Part shown: in pieces, positions 2,791-19,678 of the stretch | How positions within the stretch are numbered: the first letter of the stretch is position 1 | Layout of the letters: each line of letters opens with the position of its first letter | Assembly (NCBI RefSeq): GCF_000013605.1 | Contig: NC_007908.1 | Span: forward strand, 1,736,001 to 1,800,000 | DNA: 64,000 bases | DNA from: Rhodoferax ferrireducens T118 | GTDB lineage: Bacteria; Pseudomonadota; Gammaproteobacteria; Burkholderiales; Burkholderiaceae_C | Direction: 5' to 3' | The notes under the pieces: model-generated | What the model was told of the DNA's origin: nothing | The model's input: the letters and a program-made list of their open reading frames with translations, nothing else | Database searches by the model: none | Program-made: the position numbers and the translations under genes

Positions 2791-3749
2791 GCCGCCACCT
2801 CATGGGCCACGGTGCTCAGGTCTTGTATTTGTTGTGATGCATCCAAAACTCTGGCGGGCCGCTCATTGCGTTGACGCAGCTCCCACAACTGCCGGTCAGC
2901 CACACCGGCTTCGGCCAACAAAGCCGGCCAGACGGGCACGTCGTTGTCGCGCTCCAGCAAAGTCGCCACCGGGCCGGTCAGCCCCAGCGTGAAGGCATAC
3001 AGCTCCCACACCGCCTGCGCCACAGGCGCGCCATGGCTGTCAATCAGCAACAGGTCGCCGTTGTCGTCTTGCGCCTGGGCAAAACCGGCGAGGTGAATTT
3101 CGCCTACCTGAGCCAGCGGCATGGAACGGATGGTGGCCCGCGCGTCGCGCCCGTGGTTGACGCAGCTCACATGCACATTGTTCACGTCGAGTAGCAGGCC
3201 GCAACCCGTGCGGCGCACCACCTCGGTCAAAAACGTACCTTCGTCCCAAGTGGACGCTGAAAACTCGACATAAGTGGCCGGGTTTTCCAGCAACATGCGC
3301 CGTCCCAGGTGTGACTGCACCTGGTCAATGTGGTCACATACACGCTGCAAGGTAGCTGTGTTGTAGGGCACGGGCAACAAATCGTTCAAAAAGGCAGGAC
3401 CATGGGTAGACCAGGCCAGATGCTCCGAAAAAGATTGCGGCTGGTAGCGCGCCAGCAAGGCTGCCAGCGCATCCAGATGTTCAACATCCAGCGACGCATC
3501 GGCCCCGATGGACAAGCCCACGCCGTGAATGGAGAGCGCGTAGCGCTCGCGGATGCGGGTGAGGTAATGGTGAAACGGACCACCCGGGACCATGTAGTTT
3601 TCGGCATGGACTTCGAAGAAGCCGATGTTGGGCTGGGTGGCCAGAATTTCCTGATAATGCGCGGGCTTCAAGCCCACCCCGGCGCGTGTCGGCAGGGTGT
3701 CAGCGGCAGCACCCAGGGCTTGCGTTGGCGAATTGAATCGGTTTGGCAT
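2787..3749 (-). CDS. bufB: DUF692 multinuclear non-heme iron oxidative enzyme (MNIO) modifying bufferin
   Basis: 320 aa TIM-barrel protein of the DUF692/MNIO family. Conserved metal-ligand segments are visible in order: [60 protein letters not shown] and DSHGAPV. These supply the His, Glu, Asp and Asn ligands of the two- or three-iron centre. Related enzymes convert Cys residues of precursor peptides to oxazolone or thiooxazole groups that bind copper. I chose ATG 3749 because family similarity begins right after it (GVGLKPAHY); the frame upstream runs through bufA1 antisense. It lies 29 bp downstream of bufA1 in the same operon. Confidence 0.92.
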
Positions 3750-3778: not shown

Positions 3779-4093
3779 TCAGGCCTTGACTTCCTTGAAC
3801 TCTTTCAACTGACCGAAGCCCGTGGGCGAAGTCTTGGACACGGTCTTTTCGCAAGTGCCTTTTGGCACCATCGACCAGGCGTTGCCCTGGTAGTCCACTT
3901 TGGAGGTGCCCGCGCAGGTGGTGCCCGCGCCTGCCTTGCAGTCGTTCTTGCCTTTCAGTGCCACGCCGAAGCACTTGTCGGTGTCAGCCGCTTGGGCTGC
4001 GATCGGTGTGGCGGCAATGGTCAAGGCTGCGCTCATGGCCAAAGCCAGGGCGGCAGCAGAGGCGTAGCGAGTGGTGGTGGTCTGGTTTTTCAT
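3779..4093 (-). CDS. bufA1: Bufferin precursor peptide (DUF2282, BufA1 type)
   Basis: 104 aa. Residues 1-36 form a Sec signal peptide (two-helix-like Ala/Leu stretch ending AAQAAD). The mature part has the DUF2282 pattern with four cysteines, C41, C52, C60 and C81 ([24 protein letters not shown]). In described bufferins such cysteines are modified by the MNIO enzyme and the product buffers copper in the periplasm. ATG 4093 is preceded by AAGGA at a good distance. It heads the bufA1-B-C-D operon, and an ECF-like promoter lies at 4179-4206. The metal specificity cannot be read from the sequence. Confidence 0.93.
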
Positions 4094-4178: not shown

Positions 4179-4206
4179 TAGTCGCAACTGTCGGCGGTTT
4201 CTTACA
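4179..4206 (-). promoter_or_regulatory. ECF-type promoter of the bufferin operon
   Basis: Read on the minus strand: TGTAAG (4206-4201), 16-bp spacer, CGACTA (4184-4179), about 85 bp upstream of the bufA1 ATG. The same two hexamers with a 16- or 17-bp spacer recur upstream of arsS, senB and the TVP38-flavoprotein gene. The form (a -35 around GTAA and a -10 beginning CG) is typical of ECF promoters. Assignment to the ECF factor at 610 is inference. Confidence 0.75.
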
Positions 4207-4230
4207 CTGCGACCCATAGAAAAACTAAGA

Positions 4231-4280
4231 CGCTATAAATAATATAGCTTGTTATGCAATAAGGACGGGGGCCAGGGGCA
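4231..4280 (+). repeat. Copy of the dispersed ACGGGGGC repeat
   Basis: Contains an AT-rich arm (CTATAAATAATATAGC, itself an inverted repeat) followed about 20 bp later by GACGGGGGCCAGGGGC. This matches the layout of the other copies in the window. It lies between the bufferin promoter and the gor relic. Confidence 0.55.
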
Positions 4281-4379
4281 TAAAAAGCTTGCAACTTTTG
4301 GTGCATGGGTGAAGTCAAATGTTTCGCCTCGTGTCGGTTGGAGGTGCGGCAACGATGCCAGCGTTGGCCAGGTGATGGC

Positions 4380-4781
4380 GACTTATTTGGCCCGACCCGC
4401 ATCAGTGCTGAGCTGACCACGGTGCCCTCAGCCGTATTCAGCCAGCCGCCCATCGGTACCGTGGGGCTGACCGAAACGCAGGCGCTGGTGCAGTATGGCG
4501 AAATCGATATCTACAGCAGCCAGTTCCGCAGCATGCGCCACAGCCTGTCCGGGCGCGACGAGCGCACGCTGGTTAAACTGATTGTCGACACGGTCAGCCA
4601 GCGCGTGCTGGGGGCGCACATGGCGGGGGCCGACGCGCCCGAGATCATTCAGGGCCTGGCCATCGCGATCCGCATGGGTGCGACCAAAGCCGATCTGGAT
4701 GCCACGGTGGCGCTGCACCCCTCAGCGGCTGAAGAGTTTGTGACTTTGCGTGAAAAAATCACCCGACAACGATATGAATAA
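4380..4781 (+). pseudogene. gor: C-terminal remnant of glutathione-disulfide reductase
   Basis: The frame encodes only the dimerisation domain of a glutathione reductase-type flavoprotein (VPSAVFSQPPIGTVGLTE, SLSGRDERTLVKL, VLGAHMAGADAPEIIQGLA, DLDATVALHPSAAEEFVTL). The FAD and NADPH domains and the redox-active CxxxxC are absent, and no upstream frame in the preceding 200 bp supplies them. Just before 4380 the similarity may continue in another frame (QVMATYL), which suggests a frameshift at the break. The open frame extends upstream to 4305 without homology. Its stop overlaps the egtD start, so the fragment may still be read through as a leader. Confidence 0.85.
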
Positions 4782-5700
4782 CATCCTCACGTCCGATCAA
4801 TTGGAAATCATCAAAGGCTTGATGCAAGTCCCGGCAACGATTTCGCCCAAGTACTTTTACGACGCCAAGGGCTCTGCGCTGTTCGAGGACATTACCCGCC
4901 TGCAGGCGTATTACCCGACGCGTACCGAGCACGCCATCATGAGCATCCATGCGCCAGAGATCGCGCGCCGGGTCGGTGCAAGCTGCACCTTGATTGAACT
5001 GGGTGCAGGCAATTGCCAAAAAGCCAAAGCCTTGTGCGAGCTGATCAAGCCGGCGCATTTTGTTGCTGTCGACATATCTGAGGAGTTTTTGCATGACGCT
5101 GTAGCCAGGATGCGATTAACCTTCCCGGACATCGATATCCAGGCGCTTGCTGCTGATCTGACCGCGGACATCGGGTTGCCAGCCAGTCTGCCGGCGCAAC
5201 GCCGCCTGGTGTTCTACCCCGGTTCATCCATCGGCAATTTTGACCCACCGCAGGCGCAGGCCTTGCTGTCTCGTATACGTGACTTGATCGCAGACGATGG
5301 CGCGCTTCTGATTGGCGTTGATCTGGTTAAAGACGAAGCGGTGCTCAATGCCGCCTACGATGATGGTGAAGGTGTGACAGCAGCCTTCAACCTCAATGTG
5401 CTGGACCATGTCAACCGACTGATTGGCTCTGACTTTGATACGAACCAGTGGCAACACCGGGCATTTTTCAACGCAGATCGGTCCCGCATTGAGATGCATC
5501 TGGAGGCGAAGGCCAACCAGCTCATACACTGGCGCCACGGTGCACGCAGCTTTGCCCGTGGTGAGCGCATTCATACCGAAAACAGCTACAAATACCGGGT
5601 TGAGGATTTCGTCGAGCTTCTGGAACGTGCGGGATTGCCTCAAACGCAAGTCTGGACCGACGAGCACGCATGGTTTGCCGTTGTTCTTGCCCGTCCCTGA
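4774..5700 (+). CDS. egtD: L-histidine N-alpha-methyltransferase (hercynine synthase)
   Basis: 308 aa from ATG 4774 (an alternative GTG lies at 4750). EgtD/DUF2260-type SAM methyltransferase: PKYFYDAKGSALFEDI near the N-terminus, SAM loop ELGAGN (75-80), YPGSSIGNFDP (148-158), and near the C-terminus the E-x-S element in TENSYKYR that corresponds to the histidine-amino-binding residues of EgtD. It trimethylates histidine to hercynine, the shared precursor of ergothioneine and selenoneine. No EgtB/EgtE pair is present; the only EgtB-like enzyme in the window is the SenA-type protein at 15226-16422, so hercynine is probably made for selenoneine. The start overlaps the gor relic's stop and no good Shine-Dalgarno is visible. 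Confidence 0.92.
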   Translation: MNNILTSDQLEIIKGLMQVPATISPKYFYDAKGSALFEDITRLQAYYPTRTEHAIMSIHAPEIARRVGASCTLIELGAGNCQKAKALCELIKPAHFVAVDISEEFLHDAVARMRLTFPDIDIQALAADLTADIGLPASLPAQRRLVFYPGSSIGNFDPPQAQALLSRIRDLIADDGALLIGVDLVKDEAVLNAAYDDGEGVTAAFNLNVLDHVNRLIGSDFDTNQWQHRAFFNADRSRIEMHLEAKANQLIHWRHGARSFARGERIHTENSYKYRVEDFVELLERAGLPQTQVWTDEHAWFAVVLARP

Positions 5701-6090
5701 ACCGGGCCCCAGAACCCCGCGTCTTGCAGGGGAAGCGAAGCAAATCGACTCACGTTCAAGCTCTTGCGAGCACCCGGTCCAGAACCGGAAATTGGGGCAA
5801 GATCAATACCTATTTTTTTGGGGTCGCCCAAATTGCTGACTGGCGAGCAAGAACAGGTCGGACGGCGAGATGGATTTTTTTGTGAATTGGCTGCTGCGAT
5901 TGTAAGAAATGGCTGCTGCCAGCGACTAATGACAAAAGAGGCAAGGCGTTTGCAACTTGCAGGGCAAAACAGAATCAATGGATGGCGGCGCTTGCCCAAT
6001 GTGCGGGCACTTTGCCAATTTGACTTGAATAGGAAATTCACGAGCGGCTGGCATTTTTTCTGACCTGATTCTCAAGACCTACAAATCCTC
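5701..6090 (+). other. 390-bp intergenic region with ECF promoter and long arsS leader
   Basis: No supported gene. It holds the ECF-type promoter at 5901-5928 and then about 155 nt of untranslated leader before the arsS ATG. I see no convincing intrinsic terminator for egtD. Short frames here lack homology or codon coherence. Confidence 0.6.
5901..5928 (+). promoter_or_regulatory. ECF-type promoter upstream of arsS-arsM
   Basis: TGTAAG (5901-5906), 16-bp spacer, CGACTA (5923-5928). Both hexamers and the spacing are identical to the bufA1 promoter, and the A-A-A after the -35 is also shared. It points at arsS, whose ATG is at 6091. Confidence 0.72.
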
Positions 6091-7053
6091 ATGCACGACA
6101 CCCTCCCACTGTTGGAAAAAACCCGCTTTCCGGTCATTCGCCGCACGCACCTGGAAACCTTGCAGATCAACCTCGGCTACAAGTGCAACCAGAGCTGCGT
6201 GCATTGCCACGTCAACGCTGGCCCGAACCGTACCGAAATGATGGACGTGGCCACCATGGCGCTGATTCCGCAGGTGCTGGCCGCGCGCGAGATTGGCACA
6301 CTCGACCTGACCGGCGGTGCGCCCGAACTGCATGAGGGCTTCAGAGGCCTGGTGCGCGCGGCGCGGGCGCAAGGCGTGCGCGTGATTGACCGCTGCAATC
6401 TGACCGTTCTGTTTGAACCCGGGCAAGAAGGGCTGGCAGCGTTTCTGGCCGCGCAGCGGGTCGAGGTTGTTGCGTCCATGCCCTGCTATTCGGCGGCCAA
6501 CGTTGACAAGCAGCGCGGCGACGGCGTGTTTGACCTGAGCATTGCCGCCTTGCAGCAACTCAACGCCCTGGGTTACGGCCGCCAAGGTTCGGGCCTGGTT
6601 CTGAACCTGGTCTACAACCCGCAAGGCGCGTCGCTGCCACCCGAGCAGCAGAAGCTGCAGGCCGATTACAAACGTGAGCTGCTCCAGCACTTCAGCATCG
6701 TCTTTAACGAACTCTTTGCACTGACCAACATGCCAATCCAGCGCTTTGGCTCGACGCTGGTGTCCAAGGGCACGTTTGACGCCTACATGGATTTGCTCAG
6801 GAGCAGTTTTCAGGAACAGAACCTGCCCGGTGTGATGTGCCGCAGCACGGTTAGCGTGGACTGGCAGGGCTGGCTGTCTGATTGTGACTTCAATCAGCAG
6901 CTCGGCCTGCCACTCGGAACATCGGGACTCAAGCGCCACCTGCGCGATCTGCTGAAAACCGGCCTGGACGAACAGACCATCCGTGTGGCGGGTCACTGCT
7001 TTGGCTGCACCGCGGGCCAGGGCAGCAGTTGCGGCGGTGCACTGGAACATTGA
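6091..7053 (+). CDS. arsS: Radical SAM protein ArsS (arsenosugar biosynthesis; Cys form of the rSAM/selenodomain family)
   Basis: 320 aa. Radical SAM [4Fe-4S] motif C32-x3-C36-x2-C39 (YKCNQSCVHCHVNAGP) and LDLTGGAPEL as the glycine-rich SAM segment. The C-terminal Cys-rich region has C303, C306 and C314 (HCFGCTAGQGSSCGG). This is the layout of the ArsS family (radical SAM/Cys-rich, TIGR04167-like), where ArsS transfers the 5'-deoxyadenosyl group to dimethylarsinous acid on the way to arsenosugars. Some family members contain selenocysteine; here no in-frame UGA is needed. arsM follows 112 bp downstream and the ECF-type promoter lies 163 bp upstream. Confidence 0.9.
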   Translation: MHDTLPLLEKTRFPVIRRTHLETLQINLGYKCNQSCVHCHVNAGPNRTEMMDVATMALIPQVLAAREIGTLDLTGGAPELHEGFRGLVRAARAQGVRVIDRCNLTVLFEPGQEGLAAFLAAQRVEVVASMPCYSAANVDKQRGDGVFDLSIAALQQLNALGYGRQGSGLVLNLVYNPQGASLPPEQQKLQADYKRELLQHFSIVFNELFALTNMPIQRFGSTLVSKGTFDAYMDLLRSSFQEQNLPGVMCRSTVSVDWQGWLSDCDFNQQLGLPLGTSGLKRHLRDLLKTGLDEQTIRVAGHCFGCTAGQGSSCGGALEH

Positions 7054-7165
7054 GCGCGCCATGACGGTATCAAGCCCGATGGTGAAGAAAGACGCCAGCC
7101 CAATGAAAACACGCGTTGCTGGCCACCAATTTTGAATCACTCTATTATTTTTTTGAACAAATCTC

Positions 7166-8236
7166 ATGCCCATTCAAACCAGCACCCACAACCTCGTCCA
7201 GGACTACTATGGTCACCAGTTGCAAGGCACGGCAGACCTCAAAACCAGTGCCTGCTGCGACGCCAGCACCATGCCCGAGTGGCTCAAGCCGCTGCTCGCG
7301 CGTGTGCACCCCGAGGTGCTGTCGCGCTACTACGGCTGCGGCCTGGTGTGCCCGCCGCTGCTCGAGGGCTGCCGTGTGCTCGATCTGGGCTGCGGCTCGG
7401 GCCGCGACGTCTATGCGCTGGCACAACTGGTCGGCCCCGAGGGTGAAGTGGTCGGTGTGGACATGACCGACGAACAGCTGGCCGTGGCGCGCGCCCATCA
7501 GGCCCACCACACGGAGGTCTTTGGCTACAGCAACACAAGGTTTTTGCATGGCTACATCGAGCGGCTCGATGAGCTGGGTCTGGAGCCCGCCAGCTTCGAC
7601 GTGATCGTGTCCAACTGCGTTGTCAATCTTTCGCCCGACAAGGACGCGGTGCTGGCCGGTGTGCAGCGCCTGCTCAAACCGGGCGGCGAATTTTATTTCT
7701 CTGACGTGTATGCCGACCGCCGCGTGCCACCGGCCGTGCGCAACGACCCGGTGCTGTATGGCGAGTGCCTGGGTGGCGCGCTTTACTGGAACGACTTCAT
7801 TCAATTGGCCCAGCGCCACGGCTTTGCCGACCCGCGCCTGCTTGAAGACCGCCCGCTTGAGATTACCGACCCGAAGCTCGCCGCGCGCACCGGCAACCTG
7901 CGCTTCTTCTCGGCCACCTATCGCCTGTTCAAACTGGCCGCGCTGGAGTCTGCCTGCGAAGACTTCGGCCAGGCCGTCATCTACCAAGGCAGCATCCCCG
8001 AGCACCCGGGCCGCTTTGTGCTCGACAAACACCACGACATGCAAACCGGCAAGGTGTTTGCGGTCTGCGGCAACACTTGGCACATGCTGCAGGGCACCCG
8101 CTTTGCGCCGCACTTCAACTTCATCGGCAACTTCGACACCCACTACGGAATTTTTGACGGCTGTGGCGGCAATCTGCCGTTTGGGGCTCGCAGCGAAAGT
8201 AGCTCCGGCGTCTGCGGACTGGCGGCTTGCTGCTGA
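7166..8236 (+). CDS. arsM: Arsenite S-adenosylmethionine methyltransferase, ArsM-like
   Basis: 356 aa. SAM-binding loop LDLGCGSGR (72-80). Cysteines match the ArsM set: C30/C31, C58 (YYGCGLVCP), C151 in VSNCVVNL and C201 in GECLGGAL; the 50-residue spacing of the last two is the same as in algal ArsM. A C-terminal extension after about residue 260 ends in a Cys-rich tail (GLAACC). ArsM methylates As(III) to mono- and dimethyl arsenicals, and the dimethyl form is the ArsS substrate. It follows arsS in the same direction and is convergent with the NDH-SelD gene, 23 bp away. Confidence 0.9.
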   Translation: MPIQTSTHNLVQDYYGHQLQGTADLKTSACCDASTMPEWLKPLLARVHPEVLSRYYGCGLVCPPLLEGCRVLDLGCGSGRDVYALAQLVGPEGEVVGVDMTDEQLAVARAHQAHHTEVFGYSNTRFLHGYIERLDELGLEPASFDVIVSNCVVNLSPDKDAVLAGVQRLLKPGGEFYFSDVYADRRVPPAVRNDPVLYGECLGGALYWNDFIQLAQRHGFADPRLLEDRPLEITDPKLAARTGNLRFFSATYRLFKLAALESACEDFGQAVIYQGSIPEHPGRFVLDKHHDMQTGKVFAVCGNTWHMLQGTRFAPHFNFIGNFDTHYGIFDGCGGNLPFGARSESSSGVCGLAACC

Positions 8237-8259
8237 GTCGCACCCAGACTCCCAGCCAT

Positions 8260-10557
8260 TCACGCGCAGAGCGAAATCGGCTCCAGCGCTTCCCCTTGCG
8301 GCAAAACCCGGCCAATCGCCACCGTGTGGCTGTAGCCCAGTTCACGCAGCGCCGCAATGCAGGCCTGTGCCTTGTCGGCTGGCACGCTGGCCAGCAGGCC
8401 ACCGGCCGTTTGCGGGTCAAAAATCAGCGGGTAGCGGGGGTGATTGACCATCGCTTCCTGGTTGCGCAGGGCGCGGCGCAGGCGCACATTGGCGCTCTGC
8501 AAGGAGCTGACGATGCCCGCCGCCACGCATTCCTGTGCGCCGTCGAGCAAGGGCAAGGCCCCTAAATCAAGTTCCGCATCCACCCCCGAGGGGCGTGTCA
8601 TCTCTACCAGGTGGCCCAACAGTCCAAAGCCGGTCAGGTCGGTGCAGGCAGTCGCGCCAAATTCGCGCAGGCACTGGGCGCCCTTTTGGTTGGATACCAC
8701 CATGGACTGCAGGGCCGCGTCAATCCAGCGGCCCTTGGCGCTCAGGCGCGCGTGTGCTGCAAACAAGGTGCCGGTGCCAATCGGTTTGGTGAGAATCAGC
8801 ACATCGCCGGGGCACATGCCGTTCTTGCGCAAGATCTGCGCCGGGTCGTCATCGATCAAGCCATTGATGGCAAAGCCCAACGCCAGCTCCTTGCCTTCGC
8901 CGGTGTGGCCACCCACCAGGGCGCAGTTGGCCTCGTTCAACACTTCCAGCGCGCCCGTCATCATCTGGAACAACACGTCTTCGACCTTGCTCTCCAGGCC
9001 CGAGGGCACGGTGGCAATCGCAGTGGCCGATTGCGCCTGCGCGCCCATGGCCCAAATGTCGCCCAGTGCATGGTTGGCGGCGACCTTGCCAAAGAGGTAG
9101 GGGTCGTCAATGAAGGAGCGAAAGAAGTCCACCGAATGCACCATCGCTTTGCCGGCTGGCACCCGCACCACGGCGGCATCGTCCGGGTCGCTCAGGCCGA
9201 TGATCACGTCTTCGCGCTGCACCGGGTGCAATTGGCTCAAGGCGCGGGACAACACCGTGGCGCCCACCTTGGCGCCGCAGCCGCCGCAGCGCATGGCAAT
9301 GGCCGAGATGGCTTGCAGCGATTCTTCGGGCGTGAGCTGCACTGTCCCAGCTACACCAGCCGATGTCGGCTGCGCGCGGGTGCCATGAGTGTCCATGGGT
9401 GTCAGGTCCTGGAACTTGGCCATGAAGCGCCGGTCAATCCAGTCCTTCCAGCGCCAAACCCAGGCCCCGGCAAAACCGAGCCAGCCGCGTGACGCCACCG
9501 CGTACCGGTCGCCGGTGCTGATGAGCGCCAACCAACTGCGTTGCGGGTGGTAAGGTTTCAACGTGCCGCCCTGCACGCTCAAGCGCAGGTTCGCTGCCAG
9601 CGGTGGCCCCTGGCGCACCGCAAAAACGCCGGCTTTCTCCAGCGGGTGGTTCACCATGCTGGCAATGTCGCCGGCGGCAAAAACGGCGGGGTCGGTCACC
9701 GTCTGCAAGGTGTCGGTGACTTGAATGAAACCATCTGCGTCCAGCGCCAGGCCGGTGTCTCGCAGCCAGGCAGCGCCACCGGCGCGGGTCACCCAGACGA
9801 TCTCGTCGGTATCGATCACCTCGCCTGCCGCGGTTTGCAGCCGCCCCGGCGTCACCTGCGTGACGGCTGCATTGCGGTGCACCCGCACCTGACGCTCGGC
9901 CAGCACGGCGTCAAAACGCCTGCGCACGCCCAGGTTGTGGGTCGGCAAAATGTTGGCGTCGCTGCTGAACAGATGAAAGACCAGCTCATCGGGGTTGCGA
10001 CCCAGCGCGCGCAAGGCATGGCGCAAGCGCCACTGCATGGCCAGCAGCAGTTCCACGCCGCCGGCACCGGCCCCCACCACGGCCACGGTGGTGGTGCCGG
10101 GGTGGCGCTGCACACGTTCCAGCAGTGCCAGCCAGCGCTCGTTGAAGCGGGTGATGGGTTTGACCGCAATGGCGTTCTCAAGAGCGCCCGGCACGCCGTG
10201 GAGCTGGGGCGTGGAGCCGATGTTGATGGACAGAACGTCATACGGCACCGGCGGGCGGTTGCGGCACAGCACCTTGCGGTTGACGCGGTCCAGCCCGATC
10301 ACCTCGTCGCGGTACAGGCGCGCGCCGGCGAATACCGCCAGACGGCTCAGGTCAATGTGAACTTCGTCATAGTCATAGTGGCCCGCCACATAGCCGGGCA
10401 GCATGCCCGAGTAGGGCGTATGCATGTCGGTGCAGATGACCGTCAGGCGCACGCCGGGAACCGGCTGCATGCCAAAGCTTTTAAGCACGCCCACGTGGCT
10501 GTGGCCACCGCCGACCAGCACGATGTCTCTGAGGATGGGTTGTTCAGGTGCTTGCAT
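8260..10557 (-). CDS. selD: Fusion of FAD-dependent NADH dehydrogenase-like domain and selenophosphate synthetase (SelD; SenC role)
   Basis: 765 aa. Residues 1-380 are a pyridine nucleotide-disulfide oxidoreductase of NDH-2 type (VGGGHSHVGVLKSFGM at the start, VVGAGAGG at 159-166, VFAAGDIAS near 293). After a short linker, residues about 410-765 are SelD (selenide, water dikinase), with catalytic C424/C427 and K430 in RCGGCGAK and further SelD motifs GLSDPDDAAV, ANHALGDIWAMG, VGGHTGEGKEL, DLTGFGLLGHL and FDPQTAGGL. It makes selenophosphate from selenide and ATP; the flavoprotein half may supply reduced selenium. In sen clusters SelD (SenC) feeds SenB. senB lies 27 bp upstream in the same operon. 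No selA or selB is visible. Confidence 0.93.
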   Translation of the reverse strand: MQAPEQPILRDIVLVGGGHSHVGVLKSFGMQPVPGVRLTVICTDMHTPYSGMLPGYVAGHYDYDEVHIDLSRLAVFAGARLYRDEVIGLDRVNRKVLCRNRPPVPYDVLSINIGSTPQLHGVPGALENAIAVKPITRFNERWLALLERVQRHPGTTTVAVVGAGAGGVELLLAMQWRLRHALRALGRNPDELVFHLFSSDANILPTHNLGVRRRFDAVLAERQVRVHRNAAVTQVTPGRLQTAAGEVIDTDEIVWVTRAGGAAWLRDTGLALDADGFIQVTDTLQTVTDPAVFAAGDIASMVNHPLEKAGVFAVRQGPPLAANLRLSVQGGTLKPYHPQRSWLALISTGDRYAVASRGWLGFAGAWVWRWKDWIDRRFMAKFQDLTPMDTHGTRAQPTSAGVAGTVQLTPEESLQAISAIAMRCGGCGAKVGATVLSRALSQLHPVQREDVIIGLSDPDDAAVVRVPAGKAMVHSVDFFRSFIDDPYLFGKVAANHALGDIWAMGAQAQSATAIATVPSGLESKVEDVLFQMMTGALEVLNEANCALVGGHTGEGKELALGFAINGLIDDDPAQILRKNGMCPGDVLILTKPIGTGTLFAAHARLSAKGRWIDAALQSMVVSNQKGAQCLREFGATACTDLTGFGLLGHLVEMTRPSGVDAELDLGALPLLDGAQECVAAGIVSSLQSANVRLRRALRNQEAMVNHPRYPLIFDPQTAGGLLASVPADKAQACIAALRELGYSHTVAIGRVLPQGEALEPISLCA

Positions 10558-10584
10558 CGAGTCGCTTCACTTTGGATCGGGGGT

Positions 10585-11577
10585 TCAGGGTAGCAAGTCA
10601 CGCACCAGCGCATGCAGCGCGGCTTGTTCGGCGGCGGGTGCAAACAGGGGCGCACGCTGTGCACACTGGGCCTGCAACTGGTGATAGAAATTGTCGGCAT
10701 GTGGGTGGTTGCTGGCCTGGTCGCGGCGGCAGCGCAGCAGCAAATCGGCCAGCGCTTGCGCATCACCTGGCGCAAAATAGCCTGCATAGTCTGGCCCCAG
10801 CATGCCCACGTTGCCGGCAATGTGGGAGGCCAGCACGGGCGTGCCGCTGCGCACCGCTTCCATCACGACATGCGCGCCGCCCTCGATTCGGCTGGCATGG
10901 ATGAGTAGATGCGCGCGCTGAATGTGGCGCCGCGTGGCTTCATGGGGCAAGCCGCCCAGCCAGCGGTAGTGTGGGCATTGCTCGGCGCAGGCTTGGGCTT
11001 GCGCGCCCAGTTCTGCGTCCAGCGCCGCGCCAATGTGGTCGATGAAGATGTCGGGGTGGCCTTGCAGCAGACGCGCAGCGGCAAACAGGGTTTGCGGTGA
11101 TTTTTCATCGCGCAGATGCCCCACCATCACGGCGCGCACATGGTGCACTGTCTTGACGACCTTGTCCCGTGCGGGGGTGGACTGAAAAATCACCCGCGCC
11201 TTGTGCCGCAGCGCAGGAGGCAAGGCATCCGGCCCGCTTTCCTGCAGCAGCACCAGTTGCTGTGCATAGGCCAGGGAGGCTTGCGCGCGGGCATCGATTT
11301 GAATATCGCGGTACAAATCGGTGCCGGTGAGCACCACGGCAAGTCCTGGTGCATCCGCAACTGCACCTTGCGCGCGGGCCCAGGCAGCAATCGAATCCGC
11401 AGAGCGCCGCGCGTGCAGCGCCAGCATCACATCAAACGGCTCGCCATGCCAGGTCTGCGCAATGGTGGTCTGATACGCAGGGCTCAGCATGCGCGACCAG
11501 CGCCGCGCGGTTTGCCAGTTGCCATTGTTGGCATCGGCTAACGCGGGGCTGATGATGAGGACGCGGGCTTGGGTCAT
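10585..11577 (-). CDS. senB: Selenosugar synthase SenB (glycosyltransferase-like)
   Basis: 330 aa GT-B protein of the family once called TIGR04348 and now linked to SenB. N-terminal VLIISPALADANNGNWQTA, then HARRSADSIAAW, LTGTDLYRDI and LLQESGPDALP; C-terminal nucleotide-sugar-binding segment ASRIEGGAHVVMEAVRSGTP. SenB couples selenophosphate with a UDP-sugar to make a selenosugar that SenA attaches to hercynine. It is first in the senB-selD operon, is divergent from phnD with a 152-bp shared intergenic region, and has an ECF-like promoter 40-70 bp upstream. Confidence 0.88.
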   Translation of the reverse strand: MTQARVLIISPALADANNGNWQTARRWSRMLSPAYQTTIAQTWHGEPFDVMLALHARRSADSIAAWARAQGAVADAPGLAVVLTGTDLYRDIQIDARAQASLAYAQQLVLLQESGPDALPPALRHKARVIFQSTPARDKVVKTVHHVRAVMVGHLRDEKSPQTLFAAARLLQGHPDIFIDHIGAALDAELGAQAQACAEQCPHYRWLGGLPHEATRRHIQRAHLLIHASRIEGGAHVVMEAVRSGTPVLASHIAGNVGMLGPDYAGYFAPGDAQALADLLLRCRRDQASNHPHADNFYHQLQAQCAQRAPLFAPAAEQAALHALVRDLLP

Positions 11578-11618
11578 GGGGAAGTTTTGCAGCCGGCATC
11601 AAGCACGGCGGGTTAGCT

Positions 11619-11647
11619 TAGTCGTCTCCGAGTCAAAAAACCTTACA
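11619..11647 (-). promoter_or_regulatory. ECF-type promoter upstream of senB-selD
   Basis: Minus strand: TGTAAG (11647-11642), 17-bp spacer, CGACTA (11624-11619), about 40 bp before the senB ATG at 11577. Same hexamers as upstream of bufA1, arsS and the TVP38-flavoprotein gene; the spacer is one base longer than in the first two. Confidence 0.65.
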
Positions 11648-11729
11648 CCTCTTTTTCAAGCGGCACATGGTCTGCAGGCGTGGCCGGATTCGAGTCTAAT
11701 CGTTACTTCGTTTTCTCACTTTTCAGGCT

Positions 11730-12593
11730 ATGCACATGACTAAATTTTCTCCAAAACATATTTTTCTGGGATGTGCGCTGGTTCTCTTCGGATCGCTGGC
11801 GCAGGCCCAGGCCGTGTTCAAAGTGACCGCCATCCCCGATGAGTCGCCCACCGAGTTGGCGCGCAAGGCGGCCCCGCTGGTGAAATACCTCGAAAGAATC
11901 CTGGGCAGACCAGTCGAATTCACGCCGGTCACCGACTATGCGGCGTCGGTCGAGGCCCTGGTCAACAAGCAGGTGGACATGGCGTGGTACGGTGGCTTTA
12001 CCTTCGTGCAGGCCAATGTGCGCTCGGGTGGCAAAGTCGTCCCGCTGGTGCAGCGCGAAGAGGACGAAAAGTTCCGCTCGGTGTTCATCACGAGTGATCC
12101 CAGTATCAAAACCCTGGCGGATTTGAAAGGCAAGAGCGTGAGCTTTGGCTCGCAGTCCAGCACCTCCGGTCATTTGATGCCGCGCAGCTTTTTGTTGCAG
12201 GCCCATATTGACCCCGACAAAGACTTCAAGCGCGTTGCCTACTCCGGCGCGCACGATGCCACCATCGCCGCCGTGGCGGCGGGCAAGGTGGACGCCGGTG
12301 CCCTGAACATCTCGGTGTGGGAAAAGTTTGTTAAAGAGGGTAAGGTAGATGCCAGCAAGGTGAAGGTGTTTTACACCACCCCCGGCTACTTTGACTACAA
12401 CTGGACGGTGCATGCCGACATGCCGGTGGCGCTGCGCGACAAGCTGACTCAGGCCTTCCTGAGCCTGGACCGCAACACGGCCGAGGGCAAAGAAATTCTG
12501 GAGCTGCAGCGCGCCACCCGTTTCATTGCCACCAAGGCCGACAACTACAAGGGCATTGAACAGGCCGCCCGCAACGCGGGTTTGCTGAAGTAA
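11730..12593 (+). CDS. phnD: PhnD-family ABC transporter substrate-binding protein
   Basis: 287 aa. Signal peptide of about 28 residues ending AQAQA, then a phosphate/phosphite/phosphonate-type binding protein: IPDESPTELARKAAPLVKYLERIL, VDMAWYGGFTFVQA, SVSFGSQSSTSGHLMPRSFL, GAHDATIAAVAAGKVDAGALN. ATG 11730 or 11736 are both possible. Family members bind phosphonates, phosphite, phosphate or, in relatives such as AioX/ArrX, arsenic oxyanions. It heads phnD-phnC-phnE-phnE, placed between senB and senA, and no C-P lyase genes are nearby. The ligand is therefore open: a selenium or arsenic compound is plausible by context only. Confidence 0.9.
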   Translation: MHMTKFSPKHIFLGCALVLFGSLAQAQAVFKVTAIPDESPTELARKAAPLVKYLERILGRPVEFTPVTDYAASVEALVNKQVDMAWYGGFTFVQANVRSGGKVVPLVQREEDEKFRSVFITSDPSIKTLADLKGKSVSFGSQSSTSGHLMPRSFLLQAHIDPDKDFKRVAYSGAHDATIAAVAAGKVDAGALNISVWEKFVKEGKVDASKVKVFYTTPGYFDYNWTVHADMPVALRDKLTQAFLSLDRNTAEGKEILELQRATRFIATKADNYKGIEQAARNAGLLK

Positions 12594-12605
12594 AGTGCCG
12601 CACGC

Positions 12606-12640
12606 AATTGCTATGTATTTGATAGCTGTAGGTGCTTGTT
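12606..12640 (+). repeat. Partial copy of the dispersed repeat (TTGCTAT...ATAGCTG arm)
   Basis: ATTGCTATGTATTTGATAGC between phnD and phnC matches the AT-rich arm of the window's dispersed repeat, also seen at 54222 and 58332. The ACGGGGGCT part is missing or degraded here. Confidence 0.5.
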
Positions 12641-12668
12641 CCATGAGGTCTATTGCCCTATTTCGTTC

Positions 12669-13502
12669 ATGAAAATCAGCCTGAACGGCATCTCGGTACA
12701 GCACCCCTCGGCCAAGCCGGGTGCCGTGCCGGCGCTGCGCGAGCAGAACCTGACCGTGCGCGCCGGAGAGCAGCTGGCCATCATCGGCCCGTCAGGTGCG
12801 GGCAAGACCACGCTGCTGCATTTGTTGGCGTGTGCGCTCAAGCCGTCCGCAGGTTCCATGCTGTTGAACGACCAGGACCCGTGGCAGCTGTCGCGCGGCG
12901 CGCTACAAAAGTTGCGCGGTGCCTTGTTTCTTGCGCCCCAGGTTCCGCCGCTGCCACCGCGCCAACGCGTGGTCACCGCCGTGCTGGCGGGACGCCTGCC
13001 GAACGAGAGCCTGTGGGCCAGCTTGCGCAGCCTGTTTTACCCAACGGACATCGCGCTGGCGGAACGAGCCCTGGCCGGGTTTGATGTCGGTGACAAGCTG
13101 TTTGACCGCGTGGACCGGCTCTCGGGTGGCGAGCGCCAGCGGGTGGGCCTGGCGCGGGCGCTGGTGTCCCAGGCCAGCCTCATCCTGGTGGATGAACCCT
13201 TGTCGGCGCTGGACCCGACACGCTCTCAACACGCCATTGAAACTTTGACCCGCGCTGCACAAGAGCGCGGTGCCACGCTGGTGGCCACACTGCACCACGT
13301 CGAGATGGCACTGGCCCATTTCCCGCGCATCGTGGGCTTGCGCGACGGCCAGGTGGCCTTTGATTTGCCTGCCGCCGAGGTCACCCCGGAGCTGTTGCAG
13401 GCACTGTATGCGCAGCACCTGCATGAATTGACCGGCCTGGCAAACCTTGAGGCAGATGATCTACCCACCGACCCGGCGCCGGTGGTGATGCACTGCCGCT
13501 GA
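12669..13502 (+). CDS. phnC: PhnC-type ABC transporter ATP-binding protein
   Basis: 277 aa ABC ATPase: Walker A GPSGAGKT (40-47), signature LSGGERQR, Walker B LILVDEP, and a His switch in TLHHVEMAL. The start at ATG 12669 was chosen because MKISLNGISV begins the usual beta-strand; an in-frame ATG 33 bp upstream would add an untypical leader. It lies 75 bp downstream of phnD (a repeat fragment in between) and 15 bp before the first permease. It energises the PhnD/PhnE importer at the inner membrane. Confidence 0.93.
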   Translation: MKISLNGISVQHPSAKPGAVPALREQNLTVRAGEQLAIIGPSGAGKTTLLHLLACALKPSAGSMLLNDQDPWQLSRGALQKLRGALFLAPQVPPLPPRQRVVTAVLAGRLPNESLWASLRSLFYPTDIALAERALAGFDVGDKLFDRVDRLSGGERQRVGLARALVSQASLILVDEPLSALDPTRSQHAIETLTRAAQERGATLVATLHHVEMALAHFPRIVGLRDGQVAFDLPAAEVTPELLQALYAQHLHELTGLANLEADDLPTDPAPVVMHCR

Positions 13503-13517
13503 GACCCACACCGCGCC

Positions 13518-14372
13518 ATGCCCAACGCTTCGCCCACTCCGGCCTTGATGCCAAACCGCCCCGCCTTGCGTGACCCGGCTTGGGCCGCGCGCGTCTTCTG
13601 GGCGCTGGCTGGTTTGGCCTTGCTCTGGCCAGCTGTGGTGCTGACCGAATTCAAGCCCTGGGTGCTGCTGGAGCCGGGCGCCTTGAAGCCAGCGCTGAAT
13701 TTTGTCGGCGCTTTCTTCCCGCCGCGCACCGACGCCGAGTTTTTGGGGCTGCTGGCGCGTGAAACCTGGCGCACCGTGGCCATGGCCACAGCGGGCCTGA
13801 CGCTGGCGCTGCTGCTGGCGATCCCTTTGTCGCTGCTGTCGGTGCGGGTGCTGTCGCTATCAAGCCTGACCGGTCGCATGGCGATGGTACCCAGCGTGCT
13901 GCGCCAAGGGGTGCGCTGGCTGCTGCTGGTGCTGCGCAGCGTGCCCGAGTTGGTGTGGGCGCTGGTGTTTGTGCGGGTGGTCGGCCTGGGGCCCACCTCG
14001 GGCGTGCTGGCCATTGCGCTCACCTACAGCGGCATGCTGGGCAAGGTGTACGCCGATATCATGGAGAGCGGCGACGCCCACGCCACCACTAATCTGATGC
14101 GCAATGGTTCGGGTCGGCTGCAAGCCTTCTTCTATGGCCTGCTGCCGCAAAACGCGGGTGAGCTGACCAGCTACACCGTGTACCGGTGGGAGTGCGCCAT
14201 ACGCTCCAGCGCGGTGTTGGGTTTTGTCGGGGCCGGTGGGTTGGGGCAGCTCATGGACTCCTCCATGAAGATGTTCAACGGGTCTGAAGTGGCCAGCATT
14301 TTGCTGATTTTCATGGCGTTGGTGTGGCTGGCAGACCGCATGAGTGCGATGCTGCGCAAGGGTTTGGCATGA
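13518..14372 (+). CDS. phnE: PhnE-type ABC transporter permease, first copy
   Basis: 284 aa with about six membrane segments. Permease coupling motif around NGSGRLQAFFYGLLPQNAGELTSY, followed by YRWECAIRSSAVLGFVGAGGLGQ, the EAA-like loop characteristic of PhnE. It starts 15 bp after phnC. Together with the second PhnE it forms a heterodimeric channel. Confidence 0.92.
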   Translation: MPNASPTPALMPNRPALRDPAWAARVFWALAGLALLWPAVVLTEFKPWVLLEPGALKPALNFVGAFFPPRTDAEFLGLLARETWRTVAMATAGLTLALLLAIPLSLLSVRVLSLSSLTGRMAMVPSVLRQGVRWLLLVLRSVPELVWALVFVRVVGLGPTSGVLAIALTYSGMLGKVYADIMESGDAHATTNLMRNGSGRLQAFFYGLLPQNAGELTSYTVYRWECAIRSSAVLGFVGAGGLGQLMDSSMKMFNGSEVASILLIFMALVWLADRMSAMLRKGLA

Positions 14373-14382
14373 GGAAGAATGC

Positions 14383-15207
14383 ATGAACCCCAGCGCCGCC
14401 AACGACACCTACAAATTGCCGCCCAAGCTGTTTGATGCACGCTGCAAGGCATGCTGGTTGATGCTGGGTGTGCTGATACTGGTGGTGGCCAGTTTTGCAA
14501 CTCTCAATCTGCAATGGGCGCAGTTCTGGTCGTGGAACGCGGCGCAAAGAATGGGCCGTTTTTTGGGCGAGTTGCTGCATCCGCAGACCAGCACGGTGTT
14601 TGTCACCAAGGTGCTGCTGGCCGCCCTGGAAACGCTGGCGATGTCGGCCTTGGGCACGCTGCTGGCGGTGCTGTTGGGTCTGGCCTTGGCGCTGCCCGCC
14701 GCAAGAACCCATGCACAAGACCCGGCGCGCTGGCGCGGGACCACACGCTTGCTGCTCAATGCCTTGCGCAGCACACCTGAACTGGTGTGGGCGGCTCTGC
14801 TCCTGATTGCGGCCGGCTTGGGGCCGTTTGCCGGCACGCTGGCCTTGGGCCTGCACACTTCGGGCGTGTTAGGGCGCTTGTTTGCCGAAGCAATAGAAAA
14901 CGCCGCGCCGGGGCCAAGCTTTGCGCTGCGGTTGCGCGGTGTCGGTGAAGCCCGCGTGTTCCTTTACGCCACCTTGCCGCAAGTGTTACCGCAGTTGATG
15001 AGCTACACCCTTTACCGCTGGGAGAACAACATCCGCGCTGCCGCCGTGCTTGGCGTGGTGGGCGCTGGCGGCCTGGGGCAGATGCTGGCCTTTCACATGG
15101 GCCTGTTCCAGATGGGCGAGACCAGCACCGTCTTGCTGGCCATGCTGGCGCTGGTGGCGCTGGTCGATGCGCTGAGTTATGCGGTTCGCAGCGCGCTGTC
15201 GCGGTGA
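14383..15207 (+). CDS. phnE: PhnE-type ABC transporter permease, second copy
   Basis: 274 aa paralogue of the preceding permease with the same C-terminal signature (LPQVLPQLMSYTLYRWENN, AAVLGVVGAGGLGQML). ATG 14383 has GAGGAAG just upstream, so the in-frame codons inside the upstream gene are not needed. Two PhnE genes in tandem are common in PhnCDE operons. The gene is convergent with senA, 18 bp away, with no clear terminator between them. Confidence 0.92.
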   Translation: MNPSAANDTYKLPPKLFDARCKACWLMLGVLILVVASFATLNLQWAQFWSWNAAQRMGRFLGELLHPQTSTVFVTKVLLAALETLAMSALGTLLAVLLGLALALPAARTHAQDPARWRGTTRLLLNALRSTPELVWAALLLIAAGLGPFAGTLALGLHTSGVLGRLFAEAIENAAPGPSFALRLRGVGEARVFLYATLPQVLPQLMSYTLYRWENNIRAAAVLGVVGAGGLGQMLAFHMGLFQMGETSTVLLAMLALVALVDALSYAVRSALSR

Positions 15208-15225
15208 GGGGCGCGCAAAGCCTTG

Positions 15226-16422
15226 TTAAAGTGCCACCGTGCGAAAACCGGCAAACACCTCGGTGCGATGAGGCTGGAAGAAATTGCGGTAGCGCGGGTT
15301 GTGCATGCGGGCGTGGCTGGCAAATGCGCCGCCACGCATCTCGCGGTGATTGCCAAACCAGGGCTGCGAGTAAGCATGGTAAGGGCCGGGCTCAAAGCCG
15401 GGGTAGGGCGCGAAGGCGCTTGAGGTCCACTCCCACACGCTGTGGCCCCAGTGAAACCCCGGCTGCGTTGTTGCCGCGTATTCCCACTCGCTCGCGGTCG
15501 GTAAACGCCGACCGGCCCACAGGCAATAGGCTTGGGCTTCAAAGGCGTTCAGATGCATGGCGGGTGCTGTGTTGACCAGTGGCAGCCAGTGGTCAAACCA
15601 GCGCATTTGCCAATCACCGTGGGGGCCGCGTCGCCAATGCTGCGGGTGCGCGCAAGCCGACTGCGCTCGCCACACGCCAGCGTCGGCGGGCCAGTATTTT
15701 GCGCTGTCATAGCCCCCGGCCTCGACGAAGCGGGCAAACTCGCCGGCGGACATGGGCGTGCTGTCGATCTCGAAGTCGCCCAGTCGAACGTTCATGGCGG
15801 GGCGTTCATTGTCGAAGGCGAAGCCCGGTTCCGTGTTGCGGTAGCCAATGCAGACCTCGGCCCCCGGCACGGCCAGCGGCCTGCTGACGGGCAATTGCGG
15901 CATTGCCACCCCGTCGGGCGCGGGATAAGCCAAGGCCGAGCGCATCCAGCAAAAGGCTTCGCCGTGCATATCCTCGTGGAACAGGGCCAGGAGATGAAAA
16001 TACAGCGGGTCCTGCGCGTCATGGGTGCACGCAGTAGCGCCAGGCGGCAGCGCTGCGATACAGGCTTCCAACTGATTCGACAGCATGGACGCCAGCGCCG
16101 CACGAGAGGGCATGGCTTGACCCCAGCGCTGGGCGTGTGCCAGTCGCGCGGAATCAAACAATGCATCTGGTCCGGCAAAGCGGGGGGCGTGCGCGGCGTG
16201 AACCAGCCCTTGCTCATCGCGCTGATGCGGGCCCCGCAAGATCCAGAACTCGGCAAACCAGGCAATGTGTGCCAACTCCCAAGCCACCGGATTGACCCCC
16301 AGTTGCGGGGGCGGGCTCCATTGCGCGGGGCTCAAGTCGTTCACCAGCGACAACGTGCGTTGACGGCTCTCACGCAGGGCCGCGGCCAGTTCTGCACCAC
16401 AGAGTTGGCGCGCGTCAGACAT
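15226..16422 (-). CDS. senA: EgtB-family enzyme, SenA-type selenoneine synthase
   Basis: 398 aa from ATG 16422, which has GGAG 7 nt upstream. A further ATG at 16461 overlaps the stop of the merR relic but lacks a Shine-Dalgarno. N-terminal DinB-like domain with iron ligands (ELAHIAWFAEF and the H-x3-H of FHEDMHGEAF), then an FGE-sulfatase domain (GYRNTEPGFAFDNERPAMN, YCLWAGRRLPTASEWEYAA, VWEWTSSAF, RGGAFASHARM, RNFFQPHRTEVFAGFRTV). EgtB-type enzymes join a thiol to hercynine; the SenA branch uses a selenosugar instead. SenA rather than EgtB is inferred from senB and selD nearby and egtD in the same region. Confidence 0.85.
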   Translation of the reverse strand: MSDARQLCGAELAAALRESRQRTLSLVNDLSPAQWSPPPQLGVNPVAWELAHIAWFAEFWILRGPHQRDEQGLVHAAHAPRFAGPDALFDSARLAHAQRWGQAMPSRAALASMLSNQLEACIAALPPGATACTHDAQDPLYFHLLALFHEDMHGEAFCWMRSALAYPAPDGVAMPQLPVSRPLAVPGAEVCIGYRNTEPGFAFDNERPAMNVRLGDFEIDSTPMSAGEFARFVEAGGYDSAKYWPADAGVWRAQSACAHPQHWRRGPHGDWQMRWFDHWLPLVNTAPAMHLNAFEAQAYCLWAGRRLPTASEWEYAATTQPGFHWGHSVWEWTSSAFAPYPGFEPGPYHAYSQPWFGNHREMRGGAFASHARMHNPRYRNFFQPHRTEVFAGFRTVAL

Positions 16423-16457
16423 AAAGTTGCTCCGGTAAGGTGCAGGGTTTGGCTGTT

Positions 16458-16790
16458 TCATGGTTCTATGGGATCAGGCTGCGTTTGGCGTACGCCAATG
16501 AGTTTGTGTTCTGCCAGCGTGCGCGCCTCAACACAGTGCGTACCGTCGTACAGTCGCAGCAACCCGGCAATTTCGTCCAGACTGAAGCCCAGTTGCTGTG
16601 CCGACTTGACGAACCGGACCCGTGCCACGTCCGAATCTCCATGACGGCGAATGTTCCCCAATGGTTTGTCGGGTTCCGAGAGCGGGCCCGTGCGCTGGTA
16701 GAAACTGATGGTCTCCACATTGACCCCGGCGGCTGGGGCAAAAGCACCAATGGCGAGACTATTTCTGAAGCCTTCGAATCCATTTTGCAT
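16458..16790 (-). pseudogene. merR: Truncated MerR mercury-resistance regulator
   Basis: 110 residues closely follow Tn21/Tn501-type MerR from the start ([64 protein letters not shown]) and then break into an unrelated tail. The long dimerisation helix and the last two mercury-binding cysteines are missing, so only the DNA-binding domain and the first Cys (in GTHC) remain. It cannot be a normal mercury sensor. Its stop overlaps an upstream in-frame ATG of senA, so remaining transcription could run into senA. Confidence 0.88.
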
Positions 16791-16797
16791 ACAGTGC

Positions 16798-16834
16798 TTG
16801 ACTCCGTACTTGACCACAAACTTATCTTACGCTG
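16798..16834 (+). promoter_or_regulatory. Degenerate mer operator-promoter
   Basis: TTGACTCCGTAC at 16798 matches the left half of the classical mer operator/-35, and TTACGCT near 16828 matches its -10 end. The right half of the dyad is degraded, so MerR-type control is unlikely. It sits between the merR and merC relics, as in intact mer operons. Confidence 0.65.
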
Positions 16835-16869
16835 TCTGCCACCACACACTGATCAACCGGAGACACGCT

Positions 16870-17003
16870 ATGACACTGATAATCCGCATCGCCGACAAAG
16901 CCGGTACCTTTGGCAGCATCGTCCCGGCCCTTGGCCTGGGCTTCTTGCAGGATTACATGGACTTGTCCAGCAGCCGCCTGATGCCGCTGTTTGCCGCGCC
17001 TGC
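16870..17003 (+). pseudogene. merC: MerC remnant (mercury uptake membrane protein)
   Basis: The frame reads MTLIIRIADKAGTFGS and then LGLGFLQDYMDLSSSRLMPLFAA. These match the N-terminus and the second membrane segment of MerC, with the intervening segment that carries the Cys-Cys mercury site deleted. Homology stops near 17003 although the frame runs to 17094. With the merR and operator relics it marks a decayed mer operon. Confidence 0.75.
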
Positions 17004-17046
17004 CAGGCATTGCATCCGTCCTGCTGACCATGTGCTTGATTCGCAG

Positions 17047-17075
17047 TGTAAGAACCAGACGTTCATTGGCGACTA
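17047..17075 (+). promoter_or_regulatory. ECF-type promoter upstream of the TVP38-flavoprotein operon
   Basis: TGTAAG (17047-17052), 17-bp spacer, CGACTA (17070-17075), ending 57 bp before the ATG at 17133. Same hexamers as upstream of bufA1, arsS and senB. Confidence 0.65.
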
Positions 17076-17132
17076 TGCTTGCACAGGGCGATAGTTGTTG
17101 CCTCACCGAAGTCGAACGAAGAAGGGCAACCC

Positions 17133-19288: not shown

Positions 19289-19678
19289 ATGCTTGGCAGA
19301 ACTTGCCTTGCGCTGTGCGTGCTCGCTGGTTTGGCGGGCCTGGCGCGGGCAGAAGGGCTCGGCAGTTCCCATTGGGACGAGCTGCTCAAAAAACATGTGC
19401 AGGTGCTGCACGCCGGACAGGCCAGCGAGGTGGATTACGCTGGATTCATGGCGGACCGAACCCCACTCCAAACCTATCTGGCCAGCATATCGAAGGTGAG
19501 CCGAGCTGAATTTGACCGCTGGAGCAACCCGACGCAATTGGCACTTTACAGTGTGCCTTTGGGGCTGAATGTTGACACTTCCAGTAAACTGCCAGCTCGC
19601 AGACTTGGCATCGAGTTTCTGGACTATGACTGGCGACTGAACGCAGCCGGTCGATCAGACAGGAGCGGCAAATCGTGA
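19289..19678 (+). pseudogene. DUF547 protein with large internal deletion
   Basis: The 129-residue product has a signal peptide (LAGLARA) and the DUF547 N-terminal part (HWDELLKKHVQVL, SEVDYAGFMADR, VSRAEFDRWSNPTQLAL). It then jumps directly to the C-terminal end (RLGIEFLDYDWRLN). The central catalytic-like core of the family (INAYNA, NCASIGCP and following), about 130 residues, is missing, although the frame stays open across the junction. Either a degenerate gene or a reduced form. It starts 5 bp after the TVP38 fusion and its stop overlaps the next start, so it is in that operon. Confidence 0.75.

Follow-up and report, generated by a model that had tools for sequence, protein, structure and literature searches.

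Several described extracytoplasmic function (ECF) sigma factors come close to the locus studied here, and we cite them from the accessible parts of the papers. For sigma-E of Neisseria meningitidis (NMB2144), the promoter is given as GTMAGBWTT, 12-13 nt, CGTCTAAH, and the regulon as the sigma operon and msrAB (PMC2893595), with about ten further genes cited in PMC7907618. The meningococcal system gave no response to peroxide, diamide or singlet oxygen (PMC2893595). RpoE2/HrsE of Haemophilus influenzae controls msrAB, is induced by hypochlorite and shows little autoregulation (PMC7907618). RpoQ of Cupriavidus metallidurans acts in copper and thiol homeostasis (PMC13192273), the ECF16 factors SigF and BcrS act under metal or hypochlorite stress (PMC3511200, PMC8315932), and an ECF sigma factor alongside bufferin-1 clusters is known in general (PMC12452194). 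The signals reported for these relatives are hypochlorite, peroxide, chromium/cadmium, copper and gold. Cupriavidus metallidurans belongs to the same broad bacterial group as Rhodoferax ferrireducens T118, of which we analyzed a stretch of 64,000 nucleotides (the window, C2:1736001-1800000 of a 4.97-Mb genome in two contigs). The window holds an ECF sigma factor gene and four copies of the motif TGTAAG-N16/17-CGACTA.

Our best reading is a thiol- or oxidant-sensing ECF regulon for bufferin and arsenosugar genes, into which selenoneine genes would have been recruited here. The motif is very probably the promoter of the neighboring sigma factor, which is of the Neisseria sigma-E/Haemophilus RpoE2 kind and would start six transcription units. 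We pair the two because a site precedes the gene run holding the sigma factor, because the motif nearly equals the Neisseria promoter, and because it changes with the sigma lineage.

Six sites within 18.6 kb

The original prediction had placed the four motif copies before the bufferin, arsS, senB-selD and TVP38-flavoprotein genes, and their coordinates, strands and spacers are all exact. The figure of 0.015 chance matches per 64 kb that came with it is correct for uniform bases, and 100 dinucleotide-preserving shuffles gave 0 matches. We scanned the whole genome with three patterns, the exact motif, GTAA-N17/18-CGACTA and TGTAAG-N16/17-CGAC. The exact motif occurs five times, all inside C2:1734475-1753075 (18.6 kb), versus approximately 0.59 expected genome-wide from local base composition. 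The genome-wide scan that had been proposed as a check therefore finds the motif only in this one cluster, before genes. Five exact sites anywhere in the genome correspond to P = 4e-4, and for the 18.6-kb stretch, which was picked post hoc, 0.0022 sites are expected (Poisson P ~4e-16). The six occurrences of GTAA-N17/18-CGACTA also fall in this stretch, whereas the backward-read control word occurs 47 times.

Four of the six cluster sites lie inside the window and two lie to its left; beyond the four claimed members there are thus two more likely ones. The fifth exact site (C2:1734475-1734503, minus strand) is located 1.5 kb left of the window, before the gene of a Cys-rich peptide. The sixth, TGTAAT-N17-CGACTA on the plus strand, ends at C2:1734611 before a same-strand gene run. 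Five of the six score 12 of 12 and the remaining one 11, and the next best site within the surrounding 78 kb reaches 10. The gap from the end of the -10 element to the start codon is 85 bp for bufA1 (ATG 4093), 162 bp for arsS, 41 bp for senB, 57 bp for TVP38, 79 bp for the Cys-rich peptide and 31 bp for the first gene of the sigma run. Like the sites and their near-restriction to the cluster, the genes, their conservation and the anti-sigma residues are read directly from the sequence. Gene identities were checked with profile hidden Markov models, and the features are the following.

L006 12643-13098, L006 13107-14252, a small frame ending at window 610, sigma and anti-sigma, same strand: sigma run
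610..1236, plus strand: ECF sigma factor, 208 amino acids, above the NF009196 and TIGR02943 family cut-offs
1233..1430, plus strand: zinc-finger anti-sigma, 65 amino acids, C4 H30 C34 C37 (H-x3-C-x2-C), above the NF052368 cut-off
1494..2075, minus strand: DoxX membrane protein of the bufferin operon (PF07681)
2005..2790, minus strand: BufC-type DUF2063 protein (PF09836)
2787..3743, minus strand: BufB-type MNIO enzyme (PF05114)
3779..4093, minus strand: BufA1 precursor, DUF2282 (PF10048 passed; NCBIfam BufA2 model below cut-off)
4179..4206, minus strand: predicted ECF promoter TGTAAG-N16-CGACTA of the bufferin operon (motif; also before bufA1-type genes in relatives)
5901..5928, plus strand: predicted ECF promoter TGTAAG-N16-CGACTA of arsS (motif)
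6091..7053, plus strand: ArsS, arsenosugar radical SAM protein (TIGR04167)
7166..8236, plus strand: ArsM-like methyltransferase (best model NF008823, below its cut-off)
8260..10557, minus strand: pyridine nucleotide-disulfide oxidoreductase/SelD fusion with a presumed SenC role (TIGR03169, TIGR00476)
10585..11577, minus strand: SenB selenosugar synthase (TIGR04348)
11619..11647, minus strand: predicted ECF promoter TGTAAG-N17-CGACTA of senB-selD (clear core in only two further loci)
11730..12593, plus strand: putative selenate ABC transporter binding protein, divergent from senB (TIGR04553)
15226..16461, minus strand: SenA selenoneine synthase (NF041186; no site of at least 10/12 at its own start)
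17047..17075, plus strand: predicted ECF promoter TGTAAG-N17-CGACTA of the TVP38-flavoprotein and later genes (motif)
17133..19283, plus strand: TVP38-type (VTT) membrane domain/pyridine nucleotide-disulfide oxidoreductase fusion (PF09335, PF07992)
19675..20349, plus strand: TIGR04283 arsenosugar-associated glycosyltransferase (profile match)
20262..21005, plus strand: TIGR04282 arsenosugar-associated glycosyltransferase (profile match)

The bufferin-1 set is complete, with the DUF2282 precursor, the MNIO enzyme, the DUF2063 partner and DoxX. The selenoneine pathway, known here from its genes, has SenA, SenB and SelD/SenC all present. For the arsenosugar set, ArsS, TIGR04283 and TIGR04282 pass their cut-offs and the ArsM-like protein falls below. 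Besides the six sites, the surrounding 78 kb contains no site of at least 10/12 that would serve senA.

It is hardly credible that the repeated words arose by chance or by duplication and have no promoter function. Ungapped identity among the six flanks does not exceed 47%, and therefore the sites are not copies of one duplicated segment; together with the shuffles and the expected counts, this led us to set chance and segment duplication aside. The six sites cluster genome-wide before genes, and those of arsS and TVP38 are conserved across species. In favor of chance, TGTAAG..CGACCA also arises from conserved codons within sigma genes, and in the island contigs the real motif is outdone by one or more of 150 permuted ones. 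There the real motif has 35 matches, including sigma-gene-internal sites (five island contigs, one each), and the permutations have a mean of 5.4, a standard deviation of 5.6 and a maximum of 49; some of the permuted words are frequent in themselves, which makes this control only moderately clean.

The shortened pattern TGTAAG-N16/17-CGAC occurs eight times in the genome, five in the cluster and three elsewhere. One of the latter, C2:878232 with a score of 11/12, may belong to the regulon as well; the open frame that begins 306 bp downstream on the same strand has no Pfam family. The remaining two, located within or next to frames of the opposite strand, look unconvincing. As for smaller features of the window, a C-terminal gene fragment of glutathione-disulfide reductase (4305-4781) adjoins egtD. 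A short open frame (16871-17093) lies between a MerR-type gene and the TVP38 promoter, and it may be the start of a MerC-type transporter, which it resembles ("MerC-like remnant"). The labels "MTA phosphorylase" and "NrtS-like small frame" are likewise tentative, given on inspection of the sequence.

The sigma factor and its -10 element

The window sigma factor is the sole match at E<=1e-25 in its own genome (10 of 13 candidates scored). An 11/12 site stands before the run that ends in sigma and anti-sigma, and autoregulation is therefore likely; the run would form a single transcript. In G208, G225, G254, Pseudogulbenkiania subflava (L163) and L170, the sigma gene or its run is likewise preceded by sites of 10/12 to 12/12. 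Caldimonas manganoxidans ATCC BAA-369 combines the sigma factor with 10/12 sites and Pseudogulbenkiania subflava DSM 22618 combines it with 12/12 sites.

We built a tree of 51 sigma rows, with sites inside sigma genes removed and the -10 element labeled by majority per locus; 18 of the 51 rows had no usable site and stayed unlabeled, and three had very long branches. The loci of 6 sigma proteins use CGTC and those of 27 use CGAC. The six CGTC-locus proteins form one clade (support 100/99), which corresponds to one change, and 0 of 500 shuffles gave a number as low. Within this clade, L170 has 12/12 CGTCTA sites before the sigma run and before arsS, and L174 has them before bufA1 and TVP38, with its sigma gene outside the fetched stretch. 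The promoters thus change alike with the sigma clade, as expected of a true sigma-promoter pair.

On these grounds we consider it improbable that another ECF sigma factor of the genome, for example one of ECF16/SigF type (GTAACC-N16-CGAA), reads the motif and that the neighboring one is there by coincidence. The window sites read TGTAAG/CGACTA, not TGTAAC/CGAA, and none conforms to the ECF16 promoter TGTAAC-N17-CGAA. A site precedes the sigma-holding run, and the -10 base tracks the clade of the local sigma factor. The arsS promoters of some relatives, with TGTAACC..CGAATA-like sites, speak for another sigma factor, as do two genomes (G205, G110) with a senB site and no sigma match.

In the sigma genes of L102-L120, G050, G063 and others, we notice that the region-4 codons spell TGTAAG-N16-CGACCA shortly before the anti-sigma gene. 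Such internal sites are exact in L027 and L028, with many near-matches elsewhere. We took them as a coding artefact of conserved region-4 codons; they might still act as an internal promoter.

Reach of the regulon among relatives

Family searches used 150 or 299 genomes drawn from a larger family, and the loci scanned were 30 of 43 for arsS, 30 of 150 for sigma and 30 of 90 for TVP38. Because the relatives share ancestry, P values serve as rough guides. In 16 of 29 family relatives, arsS has an upstream site of at least 10/12, one of them nearer the TGTAACC/CGAATA type. For arsS loci from other genomes, we took the best 80 of at least 591. With the -10 element scored as CGACTA or CGTCTA, 38 of these 80 have an upstream site, versus a background of 0.0129 per 200 bp in other parts of these loci. 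TVP38 has an upstream site in 14 of 29 relatives; it is present in 38 of 39 arsS-bearing family genomes, within 30 kb of arsS in 23. When all 5+5 dyads were tallied without a preset motif and compared with shuffles, the top dyad upstream of arsS in the best-80 set was GTAAG-N16/17-CGACT (9 sequences; shuffles 3-4), and that at TVP38 was GTAAG-N15/16-GCGAC (7 of 29; shuffles 3).

A sigma relative occurs in the flanks of 19 of the best 80 arsS loci, and four of these are only 24-30% identical. The closest, at 73% identity, belong to a Hydrogenophilales metagenome-assembled genome (L153) and to Pseudogulbenkiania subflava DSM 22618 (L163). In 21 kb of the latter, 12/12 sites stand before a flavoprotein gene upstream of sigma and before a glycosyltransferase gene, and 11/12 sites before arsM and before the gene of a putative bufferin-like peptide; its arsS itself has no upstream site.

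The exact motif occurs in 21 of 150 family genomes, our own included, and at 24 places outside our genome. The downstream genes there encode DUF2282/BufA1 (3, and 1 more behind a presumably TlpA-like gene), DUF1223 (3), TVP38 (2), thioredoxin-like proteins (2, the second, in L011, named, like the TlpA-like one, on sequence inspection), MsrP (2) and MsrB (1), and these families account for 14 of the 24 places. A catalase-like gene and a cytochrome b gene also occur; two places (L027, L028) fall within sigma genes, where we regard them as coding artefacts, and those remaining are unclear or isolated. Behind one exact site lies a Met/Lys-rich small lipoprotein-like frame (L007 1536-1763), presumably a methionine-rich lipoprotein. 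It brings to mind the methionine-rich scavenger peptides that PMC8315932 describes for ECF16 regulons.

The Cys-rich peptide (L006 12138-12395) has 85 amino acids, is signal-peptide-like, carries KCG repeats and matched no known family in profile searches. Downstream of its gene lie DUF6969, thioredoxin-like and DsbD-type genes. Among 299 genomes, seven bear DUF6969, and in six of them (L006, L317-L320, L322) a KCG-repeat, signal-peptide-like protein is encoded just before it; these proteins may represent a new class of metal-binding peptides of the periplasm. G041 has a 10/12 site directly before DUF6969.

For senB, upstream regions of 90 of 113 family loci were scanned. Sites of at least 9/12 occur at 4 of 8 loci with a divergent selenate-binding gene, window included, and at 1 of 8 after egtD; there are none at 61 loci with divergent senA, at 11 others and at 2 after TVP38. 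Neither the upstream scans nor the dyad counts found a broadly conserved senB promoter. Of the 59 genomes with both genes, 21 have senB no more than 30 kb from TVP38, versus approximately 0.8 expected by chance in an assumed 4.3-Mb genome. A single contig carries senA, senB, SelD-like, egtD, selenate-binding, TVP38, arsS, bufferin and sigma genes in each of G050, G123 and G063; in G063, egtD is preceded by a 10/12 site. The neighborhood of senB is conserved, and its promoter seems to have been gained locally. In L176, where the glutathione reductase gene is complete, it is followed by egtD and a senA-like gene, and a 10/12 site lies 25 bp ahead. A conserved box, TTCGAGTCTAA, occurs upstream of the gene for the selenate-binding protein in the window (about 11690-11702), L035, L037 and L038, and is possibly the site of another regulator.

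Several observations weigh against our reading. The arsS site of the window, at 162 bp from the start, is farther away than in most relatives, and a site is missing at 42 of the best 80 arsS loci. Across 29 family loci, the arsS motif is not significantly tied to sigma (P 0.12; by hand tally, 14 of 22 loci with sigma and 2 of 7 without). The dyad shuffles are lenient, since unrelated GC-rich senB dyads reach 6 of 29 versus 3 shuffled. In the 400 bp directly upstream of sigma, only 2 of 29 relatives score at least 10, and autoregulation is therefore seen in a minority. The -10 base change is one evolutionary event, and the co-change of sigma and promoter is evidence strong in kind, not in number. 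A clear GTAAGG..CGAC core is found at 3 of 90 senB loci, namely the window, G205 and G110, the latter two from one other genus; these two have no sigma match at 1e-25, and both assemblies consist of hundreds of contigs. Finally, the site of the Cys-rich peptide recurs in 1 of 6 relatives, at 10/12.

It is possible, if rather unlikely, that the functional regulon comprises bufferin, sigma and arsenosugar genes only, and that the senB and Cys-rich-peptide sites are accidental or island passengers. The absence of sites from the senA-divergent loci and the three clear senB cores agree with this, as does a peptide site at 2 of 7 loci, one of them 10/12. Against it, both are among the genome's five sites of 12/12, and the senB site recurs 31-40 bp from the start in another genus. 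The senB/TVP38 neighborhood and the egtD site of G063 also argue for the larger regulon. The original prediction of a local regulon holds in that bufferin and arsenosugar genes carry the motif well beyond this genome, and it is weakened in its selenoneine part, where the promoter is kept in a single other genus, whose two genomes gave no sigma match at 1e-25.

In the regulon that we favor, the cytoplasmic zinc anti-sigma would hold the sigma factor. Oxidants or thiol-binding metals, to judge from relatives, may open the anti-sigma and free sigma, which would start six units within 18.6 kb: the sigma-containing run; the Cys-rich peptide with DUF6969, thioredoxin and DsbD-type genes; the bufferin operon; arsS-arsM; senB-selD; and the TVP38-flavoprotein with the arsenosugar glycosyltransferases. 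We infer operon structure, transcription, signal and chemistry, and the products may form one protective response. The supposed linkage of copper, arsenic and selenium finds no specific metal signal here; the published relatives, in the parts available, answer oxidants, hypochlorite and metals variously. More tentatively, we speculate that in many beta- and some gammaproteobacteria a thiol-switch ECF sigma factor, not an arsenic repressor, governs arsenosugar, bufferin and methionine-sulfoxide repair genes, and that arsenosugars, here also selenoneine, could be protectants induced by stress within one envelope/thiol response, more than mere waste of detoxification. Sharing a sigma factor with bufferin genes and, in relatives, methionine-sulfoxide repair genes would give arsenosugar and selenoneine synthesis a stress context that can be tested, with six mappable promoters in a self-contained 18.6-kb cluster.

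Comparison with known systems

In the open literature, with most subscription papers outside it, we found no report of sigma control of arsenosugar or selenoneine genes, and an earlier description is possible. The ECF16 systems share target genes with the window. As far as the cited parts go, Caulobacter crescentus SigF controls DUF2282/DUF692/DUF2063/DoxX genes and MsrP (YedY) (PMC3511200), and Brucella BcrS controls the MsrP/MsrQ system (PMC8315932). Their promoters, GTAACC-N16-CGAA and TGTAAC-N17-CGAA, differ from TGTAAG/CGACTA (PMC3511200, PMC8315932), and the SigF anti-sigma is a six-helix membrane protein, unlike the zinc anti-sigma of the window (PMC3511200). In Cupriavidus metallidurans, RpoQ and its anti-sigma lie near the copper- and gold-linked gig/bufferin operon (PMC13192273, in part), much as the window pair lies near its bufferin operon. 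Haemophilus influenzae RpoE2/HrsE likewise has a small zinc anti-sigma and controls a DoxX-containing cluster; unlike the window, the accessible text mentions no arsenosugar or selenoneine genes (PMC7907618).

The closest likeness is to Neisseria sigma-E, judged on published descriptions of promoter and residues. Its promoter can be written (T)GTAAG-N16/17-CGTCTA, and CGACTA of the window differs by one -10 base. The C4/H30/C34/C37 positions of the anti-sigma are those published for MseR (NMB2145) (PMC2893595). The Neisseria sigma operon also has DoxX-type and hypothetical genes and is autoregulated (PMC2893595), and the window sigma gene is linked to DoxX and bufferin-type genes. Unlike in the window, no arsS, senB or TVP38 target is mentioned for Neisseria in the parts cited (PMC2893595, PMC7907618). 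Rhodoferax has no GTAA-N17/18-CGACTA outside the cluster, in a scan for the motif and not for the msr genes themselves; MsrB and MsrP genes of other family members carry the exact site. The nearly equal promoter, the anti-sigma layout and the known bufferin-ECF pairs place the switch and its bufferin target among known kinds. The arsenosugar and selenoneine targets appear to be new for such a sigma factor, and a small regulon described in Neisseria and Haemophilus would thereby extend to many environmental bacteria.

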